DNA from: a virus | Reading direction: 5' to 3' (one strand) | DNA length: 38,632 bases | IMG/VR virus record: IMGVR_UViG_3300010396_000073 | Location: 1-38,632 of that record | In this document: positions 3,988 to 33,573 of the stretch, piece after piece | Layout: every line of letters begins with the position of its first letter | Position numbering within the stretch: the first letter of the stretch is position 1 | The notes under the pieces: model-generated | What the model was told of the DNA's origin: nothing | Database searches by the model: none | Seen by the model: the letters and a program-made list of their open reading frames with translations, nothing else | Translations under genes and position numbers: made by a program

Positions 3988-4124
3988 GCCAAGTCCTCAT
4001 CTCCCTGCCACTCATCCGGCGCGTTCGGGCCGTAAAGAAACTGAAATAAGTCGTTCGCTTCGCGGAGTTCTGGAGCAGGTTCCGGTCGCTCTACCTTCCC
4101 CTGCTCCCTTTCGCCAGAGGTCAC
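3984..4124 (-). CDS. Small acidic protein (46 residues), GTG start
   Basis: The GTG at 4124 overlaps the TGA of the polyalanine gene (GTGA), and its own TGA overlaps the next ATG (ATGA), so it fits exactly between its neighbours. The product (ending PNAPDEWQGDEDLA) is acidic, with a 'REANDLFQFLYGPN' segment. No family is recognised, but the double overlap is strong evidence for translation. Confidence 0.7.
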   Translation of the reverse strand: MTSGEREQGKVERPEPAPELREANDLFQFLYGPNAPDEWQGDEDLA

Positions 4125-4792
4125 GCACTCACCGCTTCTTTGGATTTTTCTAGAGCAGCAATATGCGGAGTTAAGACTTCTCGAACCTTATCCGCGCTTT
4201 CCTTGAGCGATTTACTTCTGGCGACGGCGGCGTAGTCGGCGGCGGCGGCGGCGGCGGCGTAGTCGGCGGCGGCGGCGGCGGCGGCGACGACGGCGGCGTA
4301 GTAGGCGGCGTAGTCGGCGGCGGCGGCGGCGGCGGCGACGACGGCGGCGTAGTAGGCGGCGTCGCCGTCGGCGTAGTAGGCGGCGTCGGCGGCGGCGGCG
4401 GCGTAGTAGGCGACGTCGGCGTCGACGTCGGCGACGACGTCGGCGTAGTAGGCGGCGGCGGCGGCGGCGTCGTTTCTCGCTTCGCGGACTTGTTCTATGG
4501 TGGCGTTTCCAGCGCACCATTCACGGACGATTCGCAAACATTCAGCGGGCCGATTTTCTCCAGCCTTTACGTACTTCAAAGCGGTGGTGGCGCATTCCAC
4601 TGCGGCCAAAACAACCTGCTTGCGAGTCGGCCAGCCCTCTCTTTCGGCCATATACCCACAAAGCCACAGGAGCCAATCTCCGCGTTCGCACGTGTCCCAA
4701 ACTTCTTGCAGGGATTTTCCGTGGGCCCAAGTACGCCCGTCCCTGCAAGCACAAAGCTCTTTAAGTAATGCTGCAAATTTCCTCGAATTCAT
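4121..4792 (-). CDS. Imm5-like protein with long Ala/Tyr/Asp/Val repeat tract
   Basis: The 223-residue product has three parts. Residues 1-108 ('GDWLLWLCGYM', 'RKQVVLAAVECATTALKYV', 'GENRPAECLRIVREWCAGNATIEQVREAR') match the 'putative immunity protein' (Imm5-like) pattern seen in phage and bacterial proteins. Residues 109-190 use only Ala, Tyr, Asp and Val, apart from one Gly. The end (191-223) is a charged helix with 'ADKVREVLTPH'. The start at 4792 has AAGGAG six bases upstream. An Ala-rich helical rod or solenoid is likely. Its position in the early block suggests interaction with host or competing elements, but no function is demonstrated for the family in phages. Confidence 0.75.
   Translation of the reverse strand: MNSRKFAALLKELCACRDGRTWAHGKSLQEVWDTCERGDWLLWLCGYMAEREGWPTRKQVVLAAVECATTALKYVKAGENRPAECLRIVREWCAGNATIEQVREARNDAAAAAAYYADVVADVDADVAYYAAAAADAAYYADGDAAYYAAVVAAAAAAADYAAYYAAVVAAAAAAADYAAAAAAADYAAVARSKSLKESADKVREVLTPHIAALEKSKEAVSA
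4259..4360. repeat. Perfect 51-bp tandem duplication in a GGC-rich triplet tract
   Basis: 4259-4309 and 4310-4360 are identical. Each encodes the 17 residues AAYYAAVVAAAAAAADY on the minus strand (residues 145-161 and 162-178 of the polyalanine protein). The wider tract, about 4220-4470, is built almost wholly of the plus-strand triplets GGC, GTA, GTC and GAC, so every coding-strand codon ends in C. This is a site for slippage in multiples of three. Confidence 0.95.
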
Positions 4793-4959
4793 CTCTGCTC
4801 CTTTTTGAAAGCGCAGAACCAGCACGGCCCGCACTGCTCCGGGTGAAATGGTTCCTGATTTTTATTTTCCAGTTCTGGCATTCTCTTATCCAGATAGGCC
4901 AGCACTGAGTCCGCTGGAAGTACTTGGAACTCGTAGTCAATGAGAGCGTAGAGGCTCAT
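4789..4959 (-). CDS. Small protein with CxxCWFC motif
   Basis: The 56-residue product begins MSLYALIDYEFQVLPADS and has CGPCWFC at about 44-50 near a basic end. Its TGA overlaps the ATG of the polyalanine gene, and GGGGGAG lies seven bases before its own ATG. The closely spaced cysteines could bind a metal. Function unknown. Confidence 0.75.
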   Translation of the reverse strand: MSLYALIDYEFQVLPADSVLAYLDKRMPELENKNQEPFHPEQCGPCWFCAFKKEQR

Positions 4960-5698: not shown

Positions 5699-6823
5699 TT
5701 AGTTGCGAGCCCCACTTTTTGCACAGTTGCTATGCACCAAAAATGGGCCTTTCTTTTGAGATGTGAACTGGATTTCCCTTACTTCTTCCGCATGTCCGCT
5801 GGCTAAAGCCTCTGATCCTTTGCTTATATTTGAGTCCCGCATATGGTCGTATATCCTCTTAGTTTCCGATCCTACCCTGTGGCCCATGTAGTGCTCGACC
5901 ACGTTGTAGGGCACGTCGGGATTCTCCAAAAGGCGTGTATTTGCTGTGTGGCGCATATCATAGAACCTCAGTCGCGCCAGTCGCGGGAACTTTTTCGCAG
6001 CCTCTTTTCGGATGGCATACCATGACTTATAGAACGAATAGATTGGTCTGCTGAAGTCTGGCCCCTTGCTTCCGTTCGGCGCACGGTGAGGGATAATGAA
6101 GTGCTCCGGCTCTGAAGCTCCTTTATCGTAGGCGTGGTCTATAAGCTGCCTTAATGCCCAGCGTGCGTCATGGTTACACTTTAGAGTCCTCACCCGGTAG
6201 TCATTCTTCACCTGATCGCAAATCTTCAACCATGAGCATTCTTTTGTGTCCACATCCATAAACCTCAGTCGGCGTACTTCCTTCGTTCCCATACAAGTGT
6301 TTCTGGCCAAGAGGCTCGCGCAATAAGTAACCAGCCAGCGGGAGTTTCCGGCAGCGACTCGAAACAACTCCTTTTCCTCTTCTGGCTCCAAAGCAATTCC
6401 CACCTTAGTTCTCGGGATTGGCAGAGGTTCGTAAAACTTCTTAATCGGCTCCCACAATGCGGCCCGATCCATGATCTGCGCAAGTATTACCCCTAGCTCG
6501 CGATTGCATCTGATTACCTTGTCTTTTCGTTGTGCTTGGTAGGCCGAAACATGGCCAATGTGGATTTCCCTTAAGCGCAAGAGGCCAAAGAATGGAGTCA
6601 TGGCCTTAATACCGGCTTTATAGTCGCGTACAGAACCCGGAGACAAGCGGACGCGCGAGTCGATCCAGATTCTGGCGGCTTCGGGGAAGGTAAGCTCACC
6701 AAAATCTACTTCCCGCATTAGGTTGTGTTTAAGATTCTCACACGCTGGGCAGGAGATGTGACCCAACGTATGCTGAAATAAGATTGACAAATTGTACTCT
6801 CCCCCCTCGGGCCAGTTATGCAC
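5699..6823 (-). CDS. int: Tyrosine-type integrase
   Basis: The 374-residue product has an N-terminal CPAC knuckle (25-28), a SAM-like core-binding domain at about 45-130 and a catalytic domain from about 145. Visible catalytic elements are K206 in a beta-hairpin, 'YDMRHT' with R291, 'MGHR' with H315 and 'RIYDH' with Y325 as nucleophile. At the first catalytic Arg position, 'NTCMGTKEVRRLRF', the residue aligned with Arg seems to be Gly179. The start is a GTG at 6823 without a clear ribosome site; an ATG at codon 36 is possible. A leftward promoter lies about 70 bases upstream, and the candidate attP is downstream. It would insert the phage into a host tRNA gene. Confidence 0.93.
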   Translation of the reverse strand: MHNWPEGGEYNLSILFQHTLGHISCPACENLKHNLMREVDFGELTFPEAARIWIDSRVRLSPGSVRDYKAGIKAMTPFFGLLRLREIHIGHVSAYQAQRKDKVIRCNRELGVILAQIMDRAALWEPIKKFYEPLPIPRTKVGIALEPEEEKELFRVAAGNSRWLVTYCASLLARNTCMGTKEVRRLRFMDVDTKECSWLKICDQVKNDYRVRTLKCNHDARWALRQLIDHAYDKGASEPEHFIIPHRAPNGSKGPDFSRPIYSFYKSWYAIRKEAAKKFPRLARLRFYDMRHTANTRLLENPDVPYNVVEHYMGHRVGSETKRIYDHMRDSNISKGSEALASGHAEEVREIQFTSQKKGPFLVHSNCAKSGARN

Positions 6824-6896: not shown

Positions 6897-6926
6897 AATA
6901 TAAACTTGCTAGCAAATTTTCCACAA
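6897..6926 (-). promoter_or_regulatory. Leftward promoter of the integrase unit
   Basis: On the minus strand TTGTGG (6921-6926) and TATATT (6897-6902) are separated by 18 bases. The palindrome TTGCTAGCAA (6906-6915) lies inside the spacer, so a protein bound there would block polymerase. Transcripts would start near 6890 and run into the integrase gene and the early cluster. Confidence 0.55.
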
Positions 6927-6946
6927 GAGAAAACTTGCTAGCAAGT
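6906..6946. promoter_or_regulatory. Pair of palindromic operators
   Basis: TTGCTAGCAA (6906-6915) and ACTTGCTAGCAAGT (6933-6946) are perfect palindromes of 10 and 14 bases that share the same 10-base core, with centres 29 bases apart. The first lies in the spacer of the leftward promoter, and the second abuts a TATAAA (6946-6951) facing the rightward gene at 6972. The pattern is that of paired repressor sites in a divergent control region. Confidence 0.75.
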
Positions 6947-7165: not shown

Positions 7166-7513
7166 CTACTGGATTGTCAGCGTAATAGTTCCCGCCGGGG
7201 CCGCTTGGTCTTTTCCTGTCGTTCCGCACACTGGCGTATTAGGCGAGGAATCTGCGAAGTTTGAGCTTTGGGCAATCACCTGATAGCAGTATTGGGTATT
7301 GGCTTGGACGTTAGTGTCGGTGAACGTCAAACCTGAAATCCCTGCTTGGATAGTGGTAAAGGTTCCTGTAGCTGTCGAGCCGCGCTGAACCTCGTAAGTT
7401 ACCCCCGAAGTAGACGAAGCAACCCAAGTCAGTACAGCTTTATGGGTGGTCTGGCAGGTTGCCAGAATCGCCAGTAAAGGCAGAAGCGAGAGACATTTTA
7501 TTAGGTATTTCAT
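7166..7513 (-). CDS. Lipoprotein-like fibronectin type III domain protein
   Basis: The 115-residue product has a lipoprotein signal: MKYLIK, a hydrophobic core LSLLPLLAI and the lipobox LATC with Cys20. The rest is one fibronectin type III domain at about 25-100, with the usual 'VLTWVASSTSGVTYEVQRG' opening, 'TFTDTNVQANTQYCYQVIAQ' and closing strands. AAGGA lies about six bases before the ATG. It overlaps the end of the beta-helix gene by 74 bases. In the cell it would be a lipid-anchored envelope protein, odd for a gene in a tail module. It could affect adsorption or mark the lysogen's surface. Confidence 0.75.
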   Translation of the reverse strand: MKYLIKCLSLLPLLAILATCQTTHKAVLTWVASSTSGVTYEVQRGSTATGTFTTIQAGISGLTFTDTNVQANTQYCYQVIAQSSNFADSSPNTPVCGTTGKDQAAPAGTITLTIQ

Positions 7514-9638
7514 TGGTATCCTTTCGTGAGAACTTTACGAACATGGCTCCGGCTGGGGCAGGCGGCGGGCTGGTAGAATTTGCCGGGTAGCAAGCCGTTG
7601 GATCGAAGCTCAATGCGCTGCCTGAACCATCCGGTTTTCCGCCCATAACATTCAGGAAGCAATCAAATGCTGGAATGCTATTAGCTTCTCCGTTCGCATC
7701 TGTGACTAGACTTCCCCCTGTACACTGCGAACTCTTTGTAGCCAAACTACCCGCATATGTTCCACCTGAGCACCGTCCCAAATTGCCTCCGGTAACGTCT
7801 GGGCCGATGGGAGGAAATGGTTCAGACTGCCAAAAAGCAGGTTTCGTGGACAAAAAGAATGATGCTGGCAGGTTGTTGTTACTTGGCACGGCATTGGCGA
7901 ACTGCGCAAGGCCGCTTGGAACTTCCCCTGAAACAAACCGATTCGCGGCGTTTACAACATCATAGTTTCCCCAGCGCATCAGTCCTGTGGTTGTACATTT
8001 ATCAGCATCAAACGTTCCTGTTCCGCCGCAATCAGAAACAAAATGCGTTAGAGAGCTATCCTGTGCGCCACCATTACCTGTGAATCCCAGCGTGTAGACG
8101 GAGGTATTTCCCGAGGCACACGTAGGGCTCGCGGAAGTGGCCGAACATGTGTAGTTGTTCGTGAAGCTTGCTTGCCCTAACACATTTCCGATGACGTTAA
8201 AGAAGCGGGAGGCAGCATAAATCTGAATCGGTACAGTCTGTGCATTGCAAGCTACTCCATCGCACAATGCTTGCCAGCCTAAAATACGATTTCGGAATAC
8301 GCTCAGGAATGAGTGGTTACCGTGTACGTTGTCTGCCTGATAGCCTCCGGCGATATTACCTTCCGCCAAATTAAATGAGTTTCCTGAGGAGTGATCGTTA
8401 ATGCAAGGCTGGAACCATCCCGCCGAGACCGTGTAAACGTCGTCAATGCAAAAGTTATAGGCGAATACATCTCCTGTGCCGCCGCCGTTGTTTGGGTTCG
8501 GCTCGGTCAATTGCTGAAAGATGTTATTGACGATGAGATTATCGCCATCCGTGAAGTCTTCCACTCCATAGCTGCGCGAAGCGTGGCTCTGCGATTGGTA
8601 AAAGTAGTTGTTTTGCGCTGTGCAGTGAGCGGCGTCCTGGAAGCTAATATGGGCACGTCCAGCCACCGTACTGCGCACGCCGCTGATCCAGCAATTAGAC
8701 GCGTTGAACGCCAGCATTGCCCAAGTCCCGGAGTTTCCAGACGTATTGTCTATAGATAGGTTCTCTATCCCTACGTTGGTGACAATCGAAGTCGCGTACC
8801 ATGCTTGAGGCTTTTGTCCTGTAGACCAATTGGACATCCTGATTGCCGGACTGATTGTGACTGTGCGGCTTGATCCCGAACCACTTACTGCGGTGATTGT
8901 CACTACCTGCTGCTGAGAGCGGTTGCACATCACTGTGCCGTTATTGCAGTTTGTGACATTGCAGGTTCCCCCATTGCAGGTTCCGTCCGTACGTGCTGCT
9001 CCGGCGCTTCCTCCGTTTGAACACACGCCAGTGACTAAGCAGTTCCAGATTTCTCCCGTGTCTGCCGTCTCATCCAACTGGTCAAGAACTAAAACATTTC
9101 CTACGGTAAGATTGGTCGCCGATCCAACGGCTGGAGTGGTAGAGCCGCAATTTGACAGGGTAATTACCGTCGTACCTGCCGAGTAACCTGCCGTCCAATC
9201 GCATACATTCTGTTCGGAATTGGAAGATGAGTTTGATCCGCACATTCCAATACCAGCGTTCAGGCCGCCACAGCTATTTGAGTCGCTTGTGAATGCCAAA
9301 AATGTCGCATTTGCGCCTGATCCTCTGATCACCACATTGCTGCGGGTGATTCCTATGCCCGCCGAAAGCGCGAAGTTGCCTGGACCTAAGAGCAAGAAAG
9401 TGTTGTTCGGGCACGCCGCCAGAAGAGAATTTATGGTTGCTGGACTAGTCCCCGCTGCTACGGTTGAACCACACTGCGTCCAGGATCCAGACGGTATACC
9501 CCCCGTAACGCCAGCCGTTGACCAATCCGTAGCGCGGGAAGGGTCAATAATTCCAGACCACAATTGCGCATGTGAGCAAATAGTTGCAACTAAAAGGCAA
9601 AATAATATTTTTGCTGAAAACAACCGAATCTTAGGCAT
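7440..9638 (-). CDS. Secreted parallel beta-helix protein (tailspike or adhesin-like)
   Basis: The 732-residue product has a Sec signal (MPKIRLFSAKILFCLLVATICSHA, cleavage before or after Q25). It then follows the pectate-lyase/parallel beta-helix plan: an opening 'SPATINSLLAACPNNTFLLLGPGNFAL', rungs such as 'GIGITRSNVVIRGSGANATFLAF', 'IENLSIDNTSGNSG' and 'NNYFYQSQSHA', and many Asn/Gly and Cys residues. A Pro-rich stretch 'SPPPAPAG' near 690 precedes a short tail. Such folds form tailspikes that bind or cleave surface glycans, but virion tailspikes lack signal peptides. No active-site set can be assigned by eye. Confidence 0.75.
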   Translation of the reverse strand: MPKIRLFSAKILFCLLVATICSHAQLWSGIIDPSRATDWSTAGVTGGIPSGSWTQCGSTVAAGTSPATINSLLAACPNNTFLLLGPGNFALSAGIGITRSNVVIRGSGANATFLAFTSDSNSCGGLNAGIGMCGSNSSSNSEQNVCDWTAGYSAGTTVITLSNCGSTTPAVGSATNLTVGNVLVLDQLDETADTGEIWNCLVTGVCSNGGSAGAARTDGTCNGGTCNVTNCNNGTVMCNRSQQQVVTITAVSGSGSSRTVTISPAIRMSNWSTGQKPQAWYATSIVTNVGIENLSIDNTSGNSGTWAMLAFNASNCWISGVRSTVAGRAHISFQDAAHCTAQNNYFYQSQSHASRSYGVEDFTDGDNLIVNNIFQQLTEPNPNNGGGTGDVFAYNFCIDDVYTVSAGWFQPCINDHSSGNSFNLAEGNIAGGYQADNVHGNHSFLSVFRNRILGWQALCDGVACNAQTVPIQIYAASRFFNVIGNVLGQASFTNNYTCSATSASPTCASGNTSVYTLGFTGNGGAQDSSLTHFVSDCGGTGTFDADKCTTTGLMRWGNYDVVNAANRFVSGEVPSGLAQFANAVPSNNNLPASFFLSTKPAFWQSEPFPPIGPDVTGGNLGRCSGGTYAGSLATKSSQCTGGSLVTDANGEANSIPAFDCFLNVMGGKPDGSGSALSFDPTACYPANSTSPPPAPAGAMFVKFSRKDTNEIPNKMSLASAFTGDSGNLPDHP

Positions 9639-9664
9639 AATATTCAGGAATTTGGAGGCAAGAT

Positions 9665-9772
9665 ATGAGCGAATTGAAAAGACTTGCTTGGACTGGAATA
9701 TGGACTGGCATCGCTTTGTTCGGCGCGATGTTTTTAGGTATTTGGACCGTTATGACAGTTTTCGGTAGCTAA
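9665..9772 (+). CDS. 35-residue single-pass membrane protein
   Basis: MSELKRLAW is followed by a hydrophobic helix (TGIALFGAMFLGIWTVMTVFG) and a stop. GGAGG lies seven bases before the ATG, a strong reason to accept so short a gene. It runs rightward, diverging from the beta-helix gene 26 bases away and abutting the end of the 9773 gene. A moron-like membrane peptide is likely; function unknown. Confidence 0.65.
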   Translation: MSELKRLAWTGIWTGIALFGAMFLGIWTVMTVFGS

Positions 9773-10474
9773 TCACTTGAATGCTATCGAAGAAAACGCC
9801 GCCTCCCCGGACGGTGTTTGATTGAGCACCGGAGCCGTTCCCGTCGTCGCATTCAACAGATAGCAATACACATCGTTTACATCCACCGTGTAAGGCGAAC
9901 CAATACTCACGAATGAATGCTGCTCATTGATTGCGTGAAAAATCAGATCATCGCTTCCCGTAAGACTTAGCGCAGTTCCAGTGCACGCTGTACACCCGGT
10001 AGGCTCCGCATTCCCTGACACGTCAAAAGTGGCCGTCCCTGTTGATCGGTGCCATTCCGTGATCTGCACGGCGAAGAACGCATCCTCGCTTAAAGAGAGC
10101 GTCACGCTTACCGAGGTCGTGCCGCCTGTAACGCTCGTAATGTACGAGATGTCTGTCGCGCCCGATGAAGGAATAAACGCCGAACAATTGCTGCAATGAG
10201 TGGAAGTCCCGCCGCCCGAAGTGGATGCTATCGTTACGTTTTCAGTTGTGAATGTATCAATGATGAGGAGATTCCCGTCGGTAGCAGCGGGAATGGTCGT
10301 AGCGCAGGTCGTGGACGGAACAGTGCACGACGGATTGAAGGTTGAATTAACCAGCGTCCATGTAACTCCACCGCTGGCCGTTTGCCCGTTCAACTGCATA
10401 AACGTAGCCCTCTGTCCAAAACACAATGCGGAGAATAAGAGAAGGCTAGTTGTAATTTTTGCCAAGAGTCGCAT
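9773..10474 (-). CDS. Exported beta-rich protein of the tail region
   Basis: The 233-residue product begins MRLLAKITTSLLLFSALCFGQ, a clear Sec signal peptide. The mature part is Thr/Ser/Gly-rich with Cys pairs ('CTACTG', 'CSNC') and a regular beta pattern ('TSVSVTLSLSEDAFFAVQITEWH'), ending in 'GEAAFSSIAFK'. The signal-peptide ATG at 10474 overlaps the end of the 1196-residue fibre gene by 29 bases. Extra in-frame sequence upstream is ignored. It may be a surface-binding or host-range factor; no family is assigned. Confidence 0.7.
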   Translation of the reverse strand: MRLLAKITTSLLLFSALCFGQRATFMQLNGQTASGGVTWTLVNSTFNPSCTVPSTTCATTIPAATDGNLLIIDTFTTENVTIASTSGGGTSTHCSNCSAFIPSSGATDISYITSVTGGTTSVSVTLSLSEDAFFAVQITEWHRSTGTATFDVSGNAEPTGCTACTGTALSLTGSDDLIFHAINEQHSFVSIGSPYTVDVNDVYCYLLNATTGTAPVLNQTPSGEAAFSSIAFK

Positions 10475-13400
10475 AGCAGTTTGTCCCGTCATAAGTGAAG
10501 GCCAAGACATCAATGGCATTCGCGGAGGATGAAAGCGTGATCGCTCCAGATCCCCCGTTGATTACCTTCCATGTGCATCCGGTTCCGAGGGTCAATCCTT
10601 CCCCGCCAGTGGCATCCTGTTTGAGCCAAATAACGTAAGAGCCTCCATTCACCAAGCCTGTCAGGTTTAAGGTGCGCGAACCGCTATGAACAGTGAAGGT
10701 CAGTGAGGCGTTAGAGCAAGGTACAGAGCCAATCGCCCACGTTACCGTTGCGCTATCGGTCTGTGCGGAGAACGATCCCGGAACACAAACGGAAGAGCTG
10801 TTGTCCACCAATTGGCTGCTTGAGTTTGATCCAAGCACGGTTTTGCTGGCCGGAATGGTTGCCCCATTTACTTGATTGGCATTATTCACGCCAGTGCTAG
10901 TAGTGGTTATTGTGCAACCTGCCCCGCAGGTCATAGTTGCCGTGGTATTGGTTGCCGTTGATATAGCACTAAAAGCGGTGGTTCCGGCAGACCCGAGAGC
11001 CGTCCACGTATTCGCGGCGGAGCAAAACTTCATTACTCCACCCGTTGAATTAAATTCAATCTGGCCAGCGGTGCAAGTCCCAGGATCGGAAGAATGCACT
11101 GGTTGCAAGAGGTCTGCTGCGCTAAAACTCTGCAATCCTGTCGAGTAGGTATTTGCTTGATCGTTATAAACAGTAGTTGAAACCTGATCGCTCTTTGTGA
11201 GCGCCGAGAATGTACCTATCTGATTTGTAGCTGAGGCATGGAGAACGTGAGTCGTGGTGTTGTCAGTTGCGGATTCTCCTACGATTCCGGTGGTCGCATC
11301 TGGGAAAGTAAAGACGCGGTTCCCCGTCGGCGTTCCGGTAATTTTCATTGATGTGCTGCCCTGCGTTCCGCCGCCGTAGAACCAAATGTTCTGCGGGGGA
11401 GCAGTTGCAGAGCCTAAATCCTTGGCCGATTGAAATAGAAGCGGGCTGTTAATGCTTACTGCGGACAAATTGTCTAAGTGGACGGTCGCGCCACCCGAAT
11501 TAGCGCCAAAAAGAATGGCGTCATAATTCGTGTTATCGCTATACCAGAAAGAGCACTGCCCATTTGAAAGCGCAAGCGAAGATTGTCCGGGCGTGTAGGT
11601 AGTGAGGCTGAAAATATTTACCAGAGAAGTTACAGGGTTGGCGTTGATTGTTCCCGCACCACTGTTGCAAAGTGCGAATGGAATATTGTTTCCAAATCCT
11701 GTCGAGCCTGCTTGGGGAACGGTATAAGACTGAGACGAAGCATTTCCTCCGATAACTAGGCTGGCGCGGTCGGTTGCTGCAATCGTGTAGCTAGTCCCGG
11801 TTTGGGTATTGACGCCAATCCCTGCGGGAGACCACTGTGGCGCGGTCGCCAATCCACCCGAAGGAATAGAAATCAGAGTTTGCGGGACTCCGTTGGTCGC
11901 GGTCGGGCCTGCAAGTCTCGTGAATGCTCCAGATGCCCCGCCATAGGGAAGATCGCCCAACGTGGTGAGAGGATTAGCGACCGAGTTATTCAGAACGAAA
12001 GCATCCGTCGCAACTTTAGTTGTGCTGTCTCCATTGGTCTGCGTAGTTGCAGTTGTGCCATTTGCAAGTGCGGTTGAAACCGACATCGTTCCGGCGGCAT
12101 CTTGCACAACTCCGGTGCTCGCAGAAGCATTTATTCCCAATCCGCCGGAAGCGGGATTGACCGTTCCGGTAATCTCTACTTTTTCCTGATTCGTTGCCGG
12201 ATTGGAATGCGTTGCCGTTAAGCCTGTCGCGTTCACTGTGCTAGTAATGAAGTTGATGCCAGCCTGCGAAGTGTTATTTACGCCGCCCGTCTGGTGCGGA
12301 ATGGTGCAGGAGCCGCCGAGCGCACAACTCTGACTGTTTACCGTTGTCGTCGTATTGTTGAGAGTTGCACTTTCGACACCGCCGGAAGGATTCGAGAACG
12401 TAATGCCGCCCGCGCCAGCAGTGTTAGTAAAGTTCAAAAGCACCTGTGACGTGTTATTGACAGTGTTTGTCTGAAGTGTTGCCCCAGAACCACCTGACCC
12501 GCACGGTGAGCCTGTATCGGCAAGGAACCATGTTCCACCGCTATTTGTCGGCTGGGCGCAATCGCCAGTGTTGAATCCGGCAGCCAGTGGCACCATTAAG
12601 TGATCCGCGCCGTTTACCCAAAAGTGCCAATTGTTATTGGTGGAGTCATATCCAACCTGCCCATTTGCTGTACTCGCGAAACTAGCGAACACTGGGAGTT
12701 TAAGGTTAGTAGAACTGCTGAAATCTACTATGCCGCTTGCGGAGAATTTCTGCGTCGGAATGGATACTCCGTTAGTATTGATGAGTAAATAATCCGCGCC
12801 AGCATCTTGCCGACTCCATCTCCACCCCGTAGACCCGTCCACCAATGGAAAGTATTGAATCGTGTTGTCTGATCGCCATTGAATCGTGTGGCGCGGAGTT
12901 CCGCCGTTGTCCGTCACGTCGAATTGATGACCATTGACAGCCTTCCAGTCGCCCCGTCCGAACATGGAATAGTTTTCGCTGGTGCCTGCCGTTTGATTGT
13001 CACCGACCACGCCATAGCATTTACTTACCGCTGCGCCAAGGATTGAATTGCATCCCAAGCCCTCATATCCATCTACTTCACCAACGGTCGTGGTGCTTCC
13101 GTTTACAGAGTTTACATATCCAATTCCACCTCGAAGAAATGGCAGATTGCCGCCAGTGGATTCGACCGCGATTGCATTTTCAGACGCTTGCAATGCGGTG
13201 TTTGTAGGGCTATTGACTGTTCCAATTACGTCAATTTCTGGGCTGACCGCATCTAAGGATTGATTATTAGCGAAATTTCCCGTCAGAACATTTACGAAAT
13301 ATCCCGAAAGATCGCTACTGGTAGGGCTTGTTCTTGTCTGAGTGCAGCGAAGCATGGCATGTAATCCGCTTCCAGAGGTTGAATTCCATGCACAGGTATT

Positions 13401-14036
13401 AAGAGCGGATGGGTCTCCACCCGTAAAATCCCAAATGGTCACATTGGCGGGAACAGAAGGGCATGCAGGCCCGGAATATCCCGTGGGAATTTCTACGATG
13501 CCAGTGCTAGAGCCTAGGTCTGCTACTGCCGCTGCGCATGTGGTGAAATGAGTTCCGTCTACTACCCGGATACCATTGATGTTTGGGAATGTGTTTGTTC
13601 CGGTGAAGTTATTGTTTGCTGGGAGAAGGTTTGTTCCTCCAGAACCTCCGACTGATACCGTATAAGGGCCGAAGCTGAAGCCTTTATAGGTCAGCGTATA
13701 GTCGTAATTTCCTGATGCAGCGTAGGCTCCCCAGTTCCCTTGTCCATCCGTGGTGGAGACGCAAGCATTGGTTCCCGCTAAAACTACTTGTTGATTCGAT
13801 GGGCACGAAGTTCCCAGCGAAAGGTCGGTATAAGTAGTTGCCTTATTGGTACACGGAACGGCATTGGCGGGGTGAGTACAAATGCTCACCAGCGTATCCG
13901 GCATGGCCTGAATAAATATTCCCGGAGTACCCGGAACGCTGCCGCTTGTAAATGCAGGAGTGCTATCGCCAAAGCGAGAACCTTGCCCAAATGCCGCAAG
14001 TGAGCACAGGAATAAAAAGACTATTAATTTTTTCAT
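10446..14036 (-). CDS. Very large tail-fibre-like protein with Sec signal peptide
   Basis: The 1196-residue product begins MKKLIVFLFLCSLAAFGQGS, a good signal peptide. Residues 140-260 include a pectate-lyase-like opening ('FTTCAAAVADLGSSTGIVEI'). The middle (about 520-640) repeats 'NNTSQ' units. Residues 680-960 carry phage-fibre text: 'TLGDLPYGG', 'PQWSPAGIG', 'YTIAATDRASLV', 'SPLLFQSAKDLGSATAPPQNIWFYGG' and 'NRVFTFPDATTGIVG'. The C-terminus ('SYVIWLKQDATGGEGLTLGTGCTW') resembles receptor-binding tips. It lies after the fibre anchor gene (14053), so it is probably the receptor-binding fibre, but an exported surface protein cannot be excluded. Confidence 0.8.
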   Translation of the reverse strand: MKKLIVFLFLCSLAAFGQGSRFGDSTPAFTSGSVPGTPGIFIQAMPDTLVSICTHPANAVPCTNKATTYTDLSLGTSCPSNQQVVLAGTNACVSTTDGQGNWGAYAASGNYDYTLTYKGFSFGPYTVSVGGSGGTNLLPANNNFTGTNTFPNINGIRVVDGTHFTTCAAAVADLGSSTGIVEIPTGYSGPACPSVPANVTIWDFTGGDPSALNTCAWNSTSGSGLHAMLRCTQTRTSPTSSDLSGYFVNVLTGNFANNQSLDAVSPEIDVIGTVNSPTNTALQASENAIAVESTGGNLPFLRGGIGYVNSVNGSTTTVGEVDGYEGLGCNSILGAAVSKCYGVVGDNQTAGTSENYSMFGRGDWKAVNGHQFDVTDNGGTPRHTIQWRSDNTIQYFPLVDGSTGWRWSRQDAGADYLLINTNGVSIPTQKFSASGIVDFSSSTNLKLPVFASFASTANGQVGYDSTNNNWHFWVNGADHLMVPLAAGFNTGDCAQPTNSGGTWFLADTGSPCGSGGSGATLQTNTVNNTSQVLLNFTNTAGAGGITFSNPSGGVESATLNNTTTTVNSQSCALGGSCTIPHQTGGVNNTSQAGINFITSTVNATGLTATHSNPATNQEKVEITGTVNPASGGLGINASASTGVVQDAAGTMSVSTALANGTTATTQTNGDSTTKVATDAFVLNNSVANPLTTLGDLPYGGASGAFTRLAGPTATNGVPQTLISIPSGGLATAPQWSPAGIGVNTQTGTSYTIAATDRASLVIGGNASSQSYTVPQAGSTGFGNNIPFALCNSGAGTINANPVTSLVNIFSLTTYTPGQSSLALSNGQCSFWYSDNTNYDAILFGANSGGATVHLDNLSAVSINSPLLFQSAKDLGSATAPPQNIWFYGGGTQGSTSMKITGTPTGNRVFTFPDATTGIVGESATDNTTTHVLHASATNQIGTFSALTKSDQVSTTVYNDQANTYSTGLQSFSAADLLQPVHSSDPGTCTAGQIEFNSTGGVMKFCSAANTWTALGSAGTTAFSAISTATNTTATMTCGAGCTITTTSTGVNNANQVNGATIPASKTVLGSNSSSQLVDNSSSVCVPGSFSAQTDSATVTWAIGSVPCSNASLTFTVHSGSRTLNLTGLVNGGSYVIWLKQDATGGEGLTLGTGCTWKVINGGSGAITLSSSANAIDVLAFTYDGTNCYATLGKNYN

Positions 14037-14052: not shown

Positions 14053-15186
14053 TTAGCCGAGGTAAACTAAACGCAGATGCAAACTATATTGGCCGCTGCC
14101 AATTGCTCCAGAAAGCGTGGAAGCATAAGTTATATTGTGGCCAGCTTCCTGATAAAAAGATATTTTCCCCAATCCAAGTGCCGTAGTTGACTCCGTGGCA
14201 GTGGAGCAATCTAAATTTGCGGTAGCTAGCGTCCGCCCTCCGCCACCAAGATCATCAGTCCAACCAAATACTCCCTGCAAATTGACTGCATTGCCTGTAG
14301 TGGTGACTTCCAAGTAGTAATGCAATTCATACATTCCAGCCGGAGCTGAAGAAAGTAACGGTGTGGTAGATATGGCGGAAGTCTGGGCAGTGATATTAGC
14401 TAAAGCAACAATCGTTCCTATGCCTGCTCCAGCTAGAGATGCGCCGTTATATAGGCCTAGCGTTCCGGTCATTTGCAAATTTCTTAAGATCACATCTGCC
14501 AAACTGGAGTTGTCGGCGGCTGCTATGCGTAATTGCTGATCAACAGCAACTTGCAGCATTACATCGTTAACTTGCTGCCCATCATCGGAAGTTAGTCCAA
14601 TATTTATCTGAGGATTTATTCCGCCAGAGACAATGAATTTCCCGTCATCGGTGAATCTTGCTATATCCTTATCTGTGCCTAATGCTCTTTTCGCTATTCC
14701 AAGATAAAATCCAGTTCCATCGCCGCAGTAAATTCTTCCAATTACATTTGTGCCCAATGAATGGGTATTATCGGTTCCGGCAATTAATAGCTTATTAGTT
14801 GCTGAATTCGGCCAAGTTTCGGGAAATGGGCCTTGGATCGCTAAATCGCGGAATGTCTGGAGGGCAGTCCAAGTCTGCGGAAGGGAGGTTATTGCCGTAC
14901 CGGGAATAACGCTATACACATTATCCACGCTCCACAGTTGAGCATTATTAGCATCTGTAAGTACAAATTTATATGTAAGAGATGCGTCTAGCCATACCTC
15001 TGCCCATCCGCCGGAGTCCAAAGTTACGGGGTTAGTATTTGGTACCGTGCCTGATTCATCGGCATAGGTAGACTGCGGGGTTGAGGTACCTGCCGCATAG
15101 GAGTATAGAAACCCTCCGGCCAGTGGATTCCCATTAGAATCAAAGAATTGCATTCGTGGAACGGGTAAAAGCTGAGTAGTTGGCAT
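14053..15186 (-). CDS. Tail fibre or tailspike anchor protein
   Basis: The 377-residue product begins with a head-binding module widely used by podophage fibres: 'PVPRMQFFDSNGNPLAGGFLYSYAAGTSTPQSTYADESG', 'NPVTLDSGGWAEVWL', 'YKFVLTDANNAQLWSVDNV' (residues 8-105). The middle contains 'FRDLAIQGPFPETWPNSATN', and the end is beta-rich ('YELHYYLEVTTTGNAVNLQG'). Unlike the next three fibre-region genes it has no signal peptide, so it is the best candidate for a true virion attachment fibre. It follows the ejection protein genes, across the plus-strand pair at 15260-15813. Confidence 0.85.
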   Translation of the reverse strand: MPTTQLLPVPRMQFFDSNGNPLAGGFLYSYAAGTSTPQSTYADESGTVPNTNPVTLDSGGWAEVWLDASLTYKFVLTDANNAQLWSVDNVYSVIPGTAITSLPQTWTALQTFRDLAIQGPFPETWPNSATNKLLIAGTDNTHSLGTNVIGRIYCGDGTGFYLGIAKRALGTDKDIARFTDDGKFIVSGGINPQINIGLTSDDGQQVNDVMLQVAVDQQLRIAAADNSSLADVILRNLQMTGTLGLYNGASLAGAGIGTIVALANITAQTSAISTTPLLSSAPAGMYELHYYLEVTTTGNAVNLQGVFGWTDDLGGGGRTLATANLDCSTATESTTALGLGKISFYQEAGHNITYASTLSGAIGSGQYSLHLRLVYLG

Positions 15187-15259: not shown

Positions 15260-15616
15260 ATGAGACTTTGTTGGGTTTTATTAATCGCTGCTTGCGCACC
15301 TTTATGCTTCGCTGTCAACAAAAATTGGCAAGACGCAGAGTTTTCGCAAATGGAAATTCGCCAGGATGACGGAGGCACCGTTGTTGCTCCTGTTGGCGGA
15401 ATGATTGCCGCGATCCCAGTCAACAGATGCACGATTATCTATACATTTAAAACTGATAAGTTGATCGTGCAGGCTTTCAATAATTGCAAGCATCTAAATT
15501 TCACACTTCATGAGCATATGAAGATCTTCCCGGAAACGAATAAATTAAAAGTGCTCGACGACTCTGGGAAAGAAGTAGGGTTGACCATTTTGGTAAAGAA
15601 ATTGAGGAACCCGTAA
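15260..15616 (+). CDS. Small exported protein, host-like
   Basis: The 118-residue product begins MRLCWVLLIAACAPLCFA, a signal peptide. The mature part opens NWQDAEF and has 'VAPVGGMIAAIPVNRCTIIYTF' and 'LKVLDDSGKEVGLTILVKK', a beta pattern that resembles small exported proteins common in acidobacterial genomes. An upstream TTG at 15218 is in frame but would extend past the signal peptide. It runs right, opposite its neighbours, and its TAA overlaps the next ATG. A moron taken from a host is the likeliest reading. Confidence 0.65.
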   Translation: MRLCWVLLIAACAPLCFAVNKNWQDAEFSQMEIRQDDGGTVVAPVGGMIAAIPVNRCTIIYTFKTDKLIVQAFNNCKHLNFTLHEHMKIFPETNKLKVLDDSGKEVGLTILVKKLRNP

Positions 15617-27125: not shown

Positions 27126-27250
27126 TTGATGTAAGAAGATAAAGTGGGAAGGTTTCGCTTAAGCCATTCGTTCGGCGTATCCCAAAAAACAAAATTTCTT
27201 TTCAGAACTTGAATGTATTGCGCTGCATAAAAATCCTCATTGAATATCAT
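27122..27250 (-). CDS. 42-residue protein linking GroES-like and portal genes
   Basis: The ATG at 27250 overlaps the stop of the GroES-like gene (ATGA), and its TGA overlaps the TTG start of the portal. The product, 'MIFNEDFYAAQYIQVLKRNF', then 'VFWDTPNEWLKRNLPTLSSYIN', is a normal-looking soluble helical protein. It seems needed to carry ribosomes to the portal start. Function unknown. Confidence 0.75.
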   Translation of the reverse strand: MIFNEDFYAAQYIQVLKRNFVFWDTPNEWLKRNLPTLSSYIN

Positions 27251-27624
27251 TTCAGTTCTCTTCTACTCCGCGAATATCCGCTTCGGTATGGCCCCTTAGG
27301 GCCGGGGGACTTAGCCGGGGGACTTATCTTATCTACACCTTTAATATCAGCTTCCGTTATTAACAGCACATCGCCTTCCTCATAATCAGAATACTGGCCG
27401 AAGTACACCACTTGACCAGGGACTACTGCTACAGGCCTCATTCTTCCGTGATCGCAGCAATATTTACCCGGCCCAGTGGCTAATACTTCACCGCGCAAGC
27501 TGCGCTCTTTATCGGTCAGAACAATTGTGCTTGATCGCATATCGGGCAATCTGCGAATTAAGATTCGGTCATGCAACGGACGGAAGTTTTGGAGCTGCTC
27601 CGCTGTGAGGTTGGATAGGCTCAT
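27247..27624 (-). CDS. GroES-like co-chaperonin
   Basis: The 125-residue product has the Cpn10 beta-barrel: 'FRPLHDRILIRRLPD' at 14-28, 'TIVLTDKERSLRGEVLATGPGK' and 'VVPGQVVYFGQYSDYEEGDVLLITEADIKGV' at about 67-97. The C-terminal 25 residues are an added basic tail ('SPGPKGPYRSGYSRSRRELK'). The segment between the two barrel halves is short and Cys-containing ('YCCDHGRMRPVAV') where the GroES loop would be. AAAGGA lies upstream of the ATG. It probably diverts host GroEL to fold the coat, as T4 gp31 does. Confidence 0.85.
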   Translation of the reverse strand: MSLSNLTAEQLQNFRPLHDRILIRRLPDMRSSTIVLTDKERSLRGEVLATGPGKYCCDHGRMRPVAVVPGQVVYFGQYSDYEEGDVLLITEADIKGVDKISPPAKSPGPKGPYRSGYSRSRRELK

Positions 27625-31126: not shown

Positions 31127-31609
31127 TTACTGTCCCCATCCGAACAAAATGCCCACAATAGGCTGGAATCCAGTTCCGCCCGAGACCGAGCTTTTCACTA
31201 CTCGCACATTAGGCATCAAACGCCAATTACCCTTAAGCTTGAATGAAGCCAAAGCACCAGTAGACCAAGCCCATCCAGTATTCGAGCCGTTAAACGATAT
31301 TCCTGCGCTTGTCGGCACATACACAGGAACATTGCTGATTGTGAATACTTTTTGTGCGACCCCAGCGCCAATGTTTGTAGTCACAGAGAATGGGTGAAAC
31401 GTATTCGGCAGAGCATCAATCACCGTGAACGCGTAAGTTCCTGAATCGCTGATGCTGTGAGCGTACAAGGCAGTTCCTGCGATTTGCGGAGTTGCGCCTT
31501 GATTGAATGAGATTCCAGCGGCGTAGATGTTTGTCGGATTGCTTGCCGCGGTTTGCGCGAATACCGCATTTGAGATAAATAGGGCCAGCGCGATGATGAG
31601 AGATTTCAT
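31127..31609 (-). CDS. Exported beta-rich protein next to terminase genes
   Basis: The 160-residue product begins MKSLIIALALFISNAVFAQ, a signal peptide with A-x-A-type cleavage. The mature part has regular Gly/Thr/Val beta segments ('YAAGISFNQGATPQIAG', 'QKVFTISNVPVYVPTSAGISF', 'WRLMPNVRVVKSSVS') and ends 'VGILFGWGQ', an aromatic terminus like that of small outer-membrane barrels. It lies between lysis and terminase genes. It might alter the envelope of the infected cell; function unknown. Confidence 0.75.
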   Translation of the reverse strand: MKSLIIALALFISNAVFAQTAASNPTNIYAAGISFNQGATPQIAGTALYAHSISDSGTYAFTVIDALPNTFHPFSVTTNIGAGVAQKVFTISNVPVYVPTSAGISFNGSNTGWAWSTGALASFKLKGNWRLMPNVRVVKSSVSGGTGFQPIVGILFGWGQ

Positions 31610-33497: not shown

Positions 33498-33573
33498 TGG
33501 AGCCTACGGACGGAATCGAACCATCAACCCGCCGCTTACAAGGCGGCCGCTCTACCATTTGAGCTACGCAGGC
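33498..33573 (-). tRNA. tRNA-Thr (anticodon TGT)
   Basis: The minus strand folds fully: acceptor GCCTGCG with CGTAGGC, D-arm GCTCAAATGGTAGAGC, anticodon stem GCCGC/GCGGC around CTTGTAA (anticodon TGT), T-arm TTGAT-GGTTCGATTCC-type with the GTTCGATTC loop, discriminator T and templated CCA. It decodes ACA. It stands alone between the accessory block and the lysis block. Confidence 0.95.

Follow-up and report, generated by a model that had tools for sequence, protein, structure and literature searches.

The stretch of DNA analyzed here, referred to as the window, is the complete 38,632-nucleotide viral contig IMGVR_UViG_3300010396_000073 from IMG/VR, and our subject is a cassette of adjacent genes in its tail region whose products begin with predicted Sec signal peptides (SPs). 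The contig contains a P22/Pam1-like podovirus head and neck module with genes for terminase, portal, scaffold, capsid, Hc3 head closure, and DNA ejection, and an integrase gene at positions 5699 to 6823 indicates that the virus is temperate. Wrong assignment of the contig to a virus is ruled out by the complete head module. The genes found on the minus strand 3' of the ejection genes encode, in this order, a 377-residue tail fiber without an SP (14053 to 15186), a 1196-residue fiber (10446 to 14036), a 233-residue protein (9773 to 10474), a 732-residue right-handed beta-helix protein (7440 to 9638), and a 115-residue FN3-like protein with weak FN3 and phage tail matches (7166 to 7513). The start of the 233-residue gene (10474) falls within the 3' end of the 1196-residue open reading frame (ORF), and the start of the 115-residue gene overlaps the end of the beta-helix ORF. 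A strong intrinsic terminator with an 11-bp stem and a T tail (7137 to 7112) ends the cassette, and no convincing promoter-like site was seen in the cassette.

A sequence-only reading of the window had proposed that four adjacent genes start with Sec SPs. All four ORFs were found on the minus strand, and a rule-based Sec test confirmed the SP of each, with a positive n-region, a hydrophobic core, and an AXA-type motif for cleavage by signal peptidase I. The SPs are MKKLIVFLFLCSLAAFG, followed by Q, in the 1196-residue fiber (13986 to 14036; score, 7.3); MPKIRLFSAKILFCLLVATICSHA, followed by Q, in the beta-helix protein (9567 to 9638; score, 7.2); MRLLAKITTSLLLFSALCFG, followed by Q, in the 233-residue protein (score, 4.7); and MKYLIKCLSLLPLLAILA, followed by T, in the 115-residue protein (score, 5.0). 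The last of these had been called an FN3 lipoprotein. The PROSITE PS51257 lipobox rule requires A, G, or S at position -1 before the cysteine, and the atypical lipobox LATC has T there and fails the rule, which leaves the lipoprotein call unsupported and the SP standing. The SP run is more than a chance occurrence: by the same test, no SP was found on the terminase, portal, scaffold, capsid, head closure, or ejection genes of the window, and SPs were scored on 0 of 52 ORFs in DSL-LC05 and on 2 of 39 in Rhodoferax phage P26218.

The mature SP proteins of the window contain 24 cysteines in 1179 residues, 26 in 708, 7 in 213, and 3 in 97 (1196-, 732-, 233-, and 115-residue proteins, respectively), and four Cys in the N-terminal domain of the 1196-residue fiber are invariant. 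Cys content is 2.0 to 3.7% in the cassette versus 0 to 0.9% in the head, neck, and ejection proteins, and it is 0.5% in the SP-less fiber. Among viral contigs, SP genes have a median Cys content of 2.08% versus 0.79% (P = 8e-9), and among prophages, the contents are 1.01% versus 0.54% (P = 0.02); the Cys counts are mostly even (21 of 29 and 10 of 12). An enrichment of 2 to 5 times over cytoplasmic virion proteins fits real export and would be expected of proteins resembling periplasmic disulfide proteins, and it constitutes evidence independent of the SP call. It also bears on the explanation that the hydrophobic N termini are uncleaved virion features, such as membrane-docking or assembly segments, of proteins that stay cytoplasmic until they are packed on virions. 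The location of the genes among structural genes would agree with this, as would the annotation of two members as "tail spike" and "virion structural protein" in the cultured phage Tunturi 1, but the Cys excess, often in even numbers, the canonical n-, h-, and c-regions with signal peptidase motifs like those of secreted host homologues, and the absence of the segment from homologous tailspikes of phages of other hosts make it very improbable.

Residues 1 to 99 of the SP-less 377-residue fiber (14890 to 15186) form a tailspike head-binding, or anchor, domain (phrog_26190; E value, 1.4e-14). The same domain is the tailspike N terminus in 37 deposited records of phages with this backbone, many of them annotated as tail spikes, and a profile built with the 377-residue fiber matches the "Tailspike head-binding domain" solved for cyanophage Pam1 in PDB entry 7eeq (E value, 5e-15) and the tail spike of 9vyg/9vyh; by this N-terminal domain, the gene belongs with the Pam1-type tailspikes. 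Terriglobia genomes were found to encode relatives of the window's Hc3 protein with 40 to 49% identity, versus 39% for the best isolate phage, and the same-backbone Terriglobia prophages L070 to L072, L110, and L114 have SP genes directly 3' of the ejection genes. In L070, L071, and L072, the products (469, 449, and 636 residues) consist of an SP followed at once by the N-terminal domain of the window's SP-less fiber. An SP precedes the head-binding domain in 12 of the 13 scored Terriglobia genome loci, a count that includes two clear cases missed by the rule and called by eye (L083 and L086) and leaves out one fragment, versus 0 of 19 reference phages (of Gammaproteobacteria, Betaproteobacteria, cyanobacteria, and unassigned hosts) and 2 of the 80 best IMG/VR loci. 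The Fisher P values of 2.6e-13 overall and 5.8e-8 against the reference phages alone are nominal, as related loci are not independent. Several of the Terriglobia anchor loci have clear phage neighbors (ejection or capsid genes). These SPs directly ahead of a proven head-binding domain suggest that fibers may be attached outside the inner membrane, as the sequence-only reading had considered. A Sel1-repeat protein with an SP is encoded directly 3' of the SP-bearing tailspike of L072 (L072:6237-7757).

The SPs might alternatively be annotation artifacts, with the true starts lying 3' of the hydrophobic segment, and in L072 an internal Met does lie just ahead of the anchor domain. No usable start lies between SP and domain in L070, L071, gp12 of Tunturi 1, or the window's beta-helix gene, and independent instances of SPs occur in dozens of unrelated genes; the artifact is refuted for most members and is hardly credible for the set. 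In the beta-helix gene, internal restarts are no explanation, because the terminal A of the SP passes directly into the domain, which starts with QLWSGII. Internal starts stripping the SPs from all homologues, the outcome that had been named beforehand as fatal to the SP proposal, are therefore not what the homologues show as a set.

Neither PHROGs nor Pfam assigned a family to any of the 1196-, 732-, and 233-residue genes, and full-length tblastn with the 1196- and 732-residue genes gave no match in INPHARED. An exact-peptide scan for close relatives returned one locus for the 1196-residue gene, none for Hc3, and one for the 377-residue gene; alignment queries did better. The N-terminal domain of the 1196-residue fiber is common to two SP fibers of L052, and its fiber-type C-terminal module (10446 to 10790) recurs in L002, L006, and L007, in proteins that all have SPs by rule or by eye. 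L002 encodes SP proteins of 812, 1658, and 248 residues in the same order as in the window; the C-terminal module is present in the 1658-residue protein (81%), and the 248-residue protein is a homologue of the 233-residue protein (30% identity) with the same overlapping start. The 108-kb contig L004 encodes SP proteins of 420, 220, 819 (beta-helix), and 171 (FN3) residues, and FN3 stretches related to the 115-residue protein occur in SP proteins adjoining the beta-helix genes of L004 and L049. SP genes lie directly 3' of the portal gene in L005, 3' of the capsid gene in L007, and among head-tail genes in L006. Scanning IMG/VR with a beta-helix alignment yielded 19 contigs, several of which (L047, L048, L050, L051, L052, L053, and L056) have three to five large SP genes in a row. 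The C-terminal module was found in only 2 of 396 Acidobacteriota genomes, one of them with a run of four SP genes (L075; three found by the rule, the fourth by eye), and a scan of GTDB genome contigs for the module gave no match. In unrelated soil phages and in Terriglobia (Acidobacteriota) prophages alike, the tail slot is filled by runs of SP-bearing fiber-like genes. A permutation test on SP run lengths was weak, given the strict rule and the short loci, and the significance of the association therefore rests on the anchor-domain comparison and on Cys content.

The beta-helix gene has homologues in 41 of 399 Terriglobia genomes and, in GTDB, mostly in Acidobacteriota. The host homologues adjoin genes for UDP-sugar dehydrogenase, Wzx flippase, Wzy polymerase, glycosyltransferases, and related proteins of exopolysaccharide (EPS) loci, and 44 of 60 family matches have SPs by rule. 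Viral and bacterial rows interleave in the tree, with at least eight changes of label, and the window copy groups with the Acidobacteriota loci L008 and L011. The proposal that host secreted genes have been recruited into the tail module is thereby supported for this gene, which would have come from Acidobacteriota EPS loci through exchange between phage and host. Together with the Hc3 relatives, the beta-helix relatives also point to an acidobacterium as the probable host of the window. The 732-residue gene has no Pfam family at threshold. Its AlphaFold2 (AF2) model (pLDDT, 84) has the geometry of a right-handed parallel beta-helix, and the nearest PDB folds by Foldseek are phage capsule depolymerases and tailspikes (K1 capsule lyase, LKA1 gp49, and AP22 gp54; E value, 3e-13 to 7w1c). 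The protein, a predicted EPS lyase or hydrolase, is likely to cleave or remodel EPS. Identical beta-helix genes occur in GTDB metagenome-assembled genomes labeled Acidobacteria gp2, Acidobacteria gp1, and Verrucomicrobia (L017, L018, and L039), for which binning contamination is probable.

For fibers, the reverse is also true, namely that genuine tail fiber proteins have gained SPs. Tunturi 1 to 5 are cultured Acidobacteriota phages (PMC11924767), and in Tunturi 1, whose host is T. psychrotolerans X5P2, a contiguous block of genes all have SPs: gp12 (1190 residues), gp13 (675 residues), gp14 ("tail spike protein"; 919 residues), gp16 (149 residues), and gp17 ("virion structural protein"; 1184 residues). 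The remaining late genes listed for Tunturi 1 lack SPs, with the exception of the 44-residue membrane peptide gp18. Over its SP and N-terminal domain, gp12 is related to the SP fiber of prophage L117, and its first 183 residues are identical in Tunturi 2; the N-terminal domain matches the Serratia phage MTx tailspike, an SP-less protein in which the domain starts 9 codons in. Because SP gain is seen both at the head-binding-domain loci and in the gp12/MTx pair, SPs have been added to tail fiber N termini in at least two families. The main text of PMC11924767 mentions neither signal peptides, mass spectrometry, nor a virion proteome.

On balance, we favor the reading that the window contains a late-operon cassette of Sec-exported, Cys-rich receptor-binding and EPS-degrading proteins in the slot occupied in relatives by cytoplasmic tail fibers, and recruitment of part of the cassette from hosts is the best reading of its origin. 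The export of the cassette proteins is itself highly probable from their N termini and Cys content. The proteins would be made late in infection, pass through the inner membrane via Sec, be cut by signal peptidase after the A/G-x-A/G motif and before Q, and fold in the oxidizing periplasm. The beta-helix protein would most likely cut or remodel host EPS, allowing progeny to leave or spread. The fibers would act outside the cytoplasm. Relatives with the head-binding domain as their mature N terminus would attach to virions upon lysis or later, and the SP proteins of the window itself could function either unattached or bound. That exported tailspikes with an anchor dock in this way is possible and is favored by the intact head-binding domain kept behind the SP; for the beta-helix protein alone, whose mature form has no anchor, free action is favored. 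With less than even probability, a large set of Acidobacteriota phages might have Sec-exported fibers and tailspikes with periplasmic disulfide bonds that are added to the virion no earlier than lysis, which would complete the infectious particle outside the cytoplasm.

The main rival is that the exported proteins are never on virions and act as free secreted factors (EPS depolymerase, adhesins, decoys, or superinfection exclusion), possibly made by the lysogen, with the fiber domains as relics. It would agree with the start of the mature beta-helix protein at the enzyme domain, with the secretion of its host family, with the temperate nature of the window, and with the precedent of phage lambda Lom, an SP-bearing outer membrane protein whose gene lies between tail genes and which lysogens express (PMC12309495). 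An intact head-binding domain directly behind the SP, as in the Terriglobia prophages, would however be needless in a purely free protein, and the cassette genes lie in a late operon with a shared terminator; we regard this rival as a serious, if doubtful, possibility. Its lysogenic form, a surface adhesin or exclusion factor of the lysogen, had been offered by the sequence-only reading and is less favored, because Tunturi 1 also has an SP cassette although no integrase has been reported for it, and because the genes are packed at the 3' end of the late operon, where a terminator follows the last of them and no internal promoter was seen.

Several points weigh against the exported virion-protein cassette that we favor. 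SPs were scored by a home-made rule and inspection rather than by SignalP, and the 377-residue fiber, which adjoins the SP genes and has the head-binding domain, has no SP. We infer export and cleavage, enzymatic activity, place of action, and virion docking from features read in the sequences, namely the SPs and their conservation, the genomic slot, the lineage association, the Cys enrichment, host-phage gene exchange, and the fold class. The N-terminal domain of the 1196-residue fiber is no more than a candidate virion anchor: comparison with the head-binding domain by hhalign gave 83% with a biased alignment and 3.8% with an unbiased one, the AF2 model was poor, and Foldseek returned no match for the domain at an E value of 0.001 or below. 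Among the Terriglobia anchor loci, L111 to L113 are seemingly isolated relics. The trait is also not universal: in Tunturi 3 and 4, the same rule scored SPs on none of the 41 virion and lysis genes that are listed, and SPs as a feature of all Terriglobia phages are thus ruled out.

Other SP proteins and features of the window lie outside the finding. A 160-residue SP protein (MKSLIIALALFISNAVFA, followed by Q) is encoded near the endolysin gene (31127 to 31609, minus strand) and is unrelated to gp24, a similarly placed SP protein of Rhodoferax phage P26218. On the opposite strand, between the 377-residue fiber and the ejection genes, a 118-residue SP protein (MRLCWVLLIAACAPLCFA, followed by V; 15260 to 15616) looks like a lysogenic-conversion moron, and a 35-residue membrane mini-ORF (MSELKRLAWTGIWTGIALFGAMFLGIWTVMTVFGS; 9665 to 9772, plus strand) with a good GGAGG ribosome site lies antisense between the 233-residue and beta-helix genes. 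A 19-pair hairpin (ACTTGCTAGCAAGTTTT...GCTAGCAAGT; 6904 to 6946) between the cassette terminator and the integrase gene is possibly an attachment or operator site. On the minus strand are also a gene for a 237-residue protein with a long low-complexity Ala/Tyr/Asp repeat (YYADVVADVDADVAYYAAAAADAAYYADG...; 4121 to 4834) and a GroES-like co-chaperonin gene adjoining the portal gene (phrog_3188; 27247 to 27624), with one in the same place in DSL-LC05. Genes for tRNA-Arg(tct) and tRNA-Thr(tgt) were found at 1520 to 1595 and 33498 to 33573 (minus strand), respectively.

The assembly of tailed-phage virions is regarded as entirely cytoplasmic. If the reading given here is true, lineage-wide cleavable Sec signals ahead of tailspike anchors would mean either that virions are completed outside the cytoplasm or that fibers have been turned into secreted EPS-attack proteins, and either outcome would lack a precedent among tailed phages in the open PMC literature that was searched. 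Acidobacteriota are dominant soil bacteria with abundant EPS, and the movement of genes between their EPS loci and phage tail modules matters for the ecology of soil viruses and for the reading of "carbohydrate-active" auxiliary metabolic genes. Tunturi 1 and 2 and their host make the question directly testable.

Among known systems, the tailspikes of Pam1-type podoviruses (Pam1, PDB 7eeq; Pan3; Xanthomonas PBR31; and Shewanella X14) share with the window the backbone genes, the 95-residue N-terminal anchor, the slot 3' of the ejection genes, and beta-helix depolymerase bodies, but they begin at the anchor without an SP, in contrast to the Terriglobia relatives. Tunturi 1 and 2 of Tunturiibacter (PP887698 and PP885685) have, like the window, a contiguous late run of Cys-rich SP fiber and tailspike genes, and they differ in having another podovirus backbone and genomes of 63 kb. 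The capsule and EPS depolymerase tailspikes LKA1 gp49, phi297 gp61, AP22 gp54, K1 lyase, and KP34 gp57 are right-handed beta-helices like the 732-residue protein and are its top Foldseek matches, with only 8 to 14% identity and template modeling scores of 0.3 to 0.4; unlike them, the 732-residue protein is predicted to be exported, has no virion anchor, and has its sequence relatives among host EPS-locus proteins. Lom is a single outer membrane barrel, whereas the window and its relatives have whole runs of SP fiber and depolymerase proteins. The signal-peptide endolysin Lys44 of phage fOg44 is a late phage protein exported via the host Sec system (PMC6116005), and such endolysins and the signal-arrest-release endolysins resemble the cassette in this use of Sec; they are lysis enzymes, in contrast to the cassette proteins, which are predicted to bind receptors or degrade EPS.

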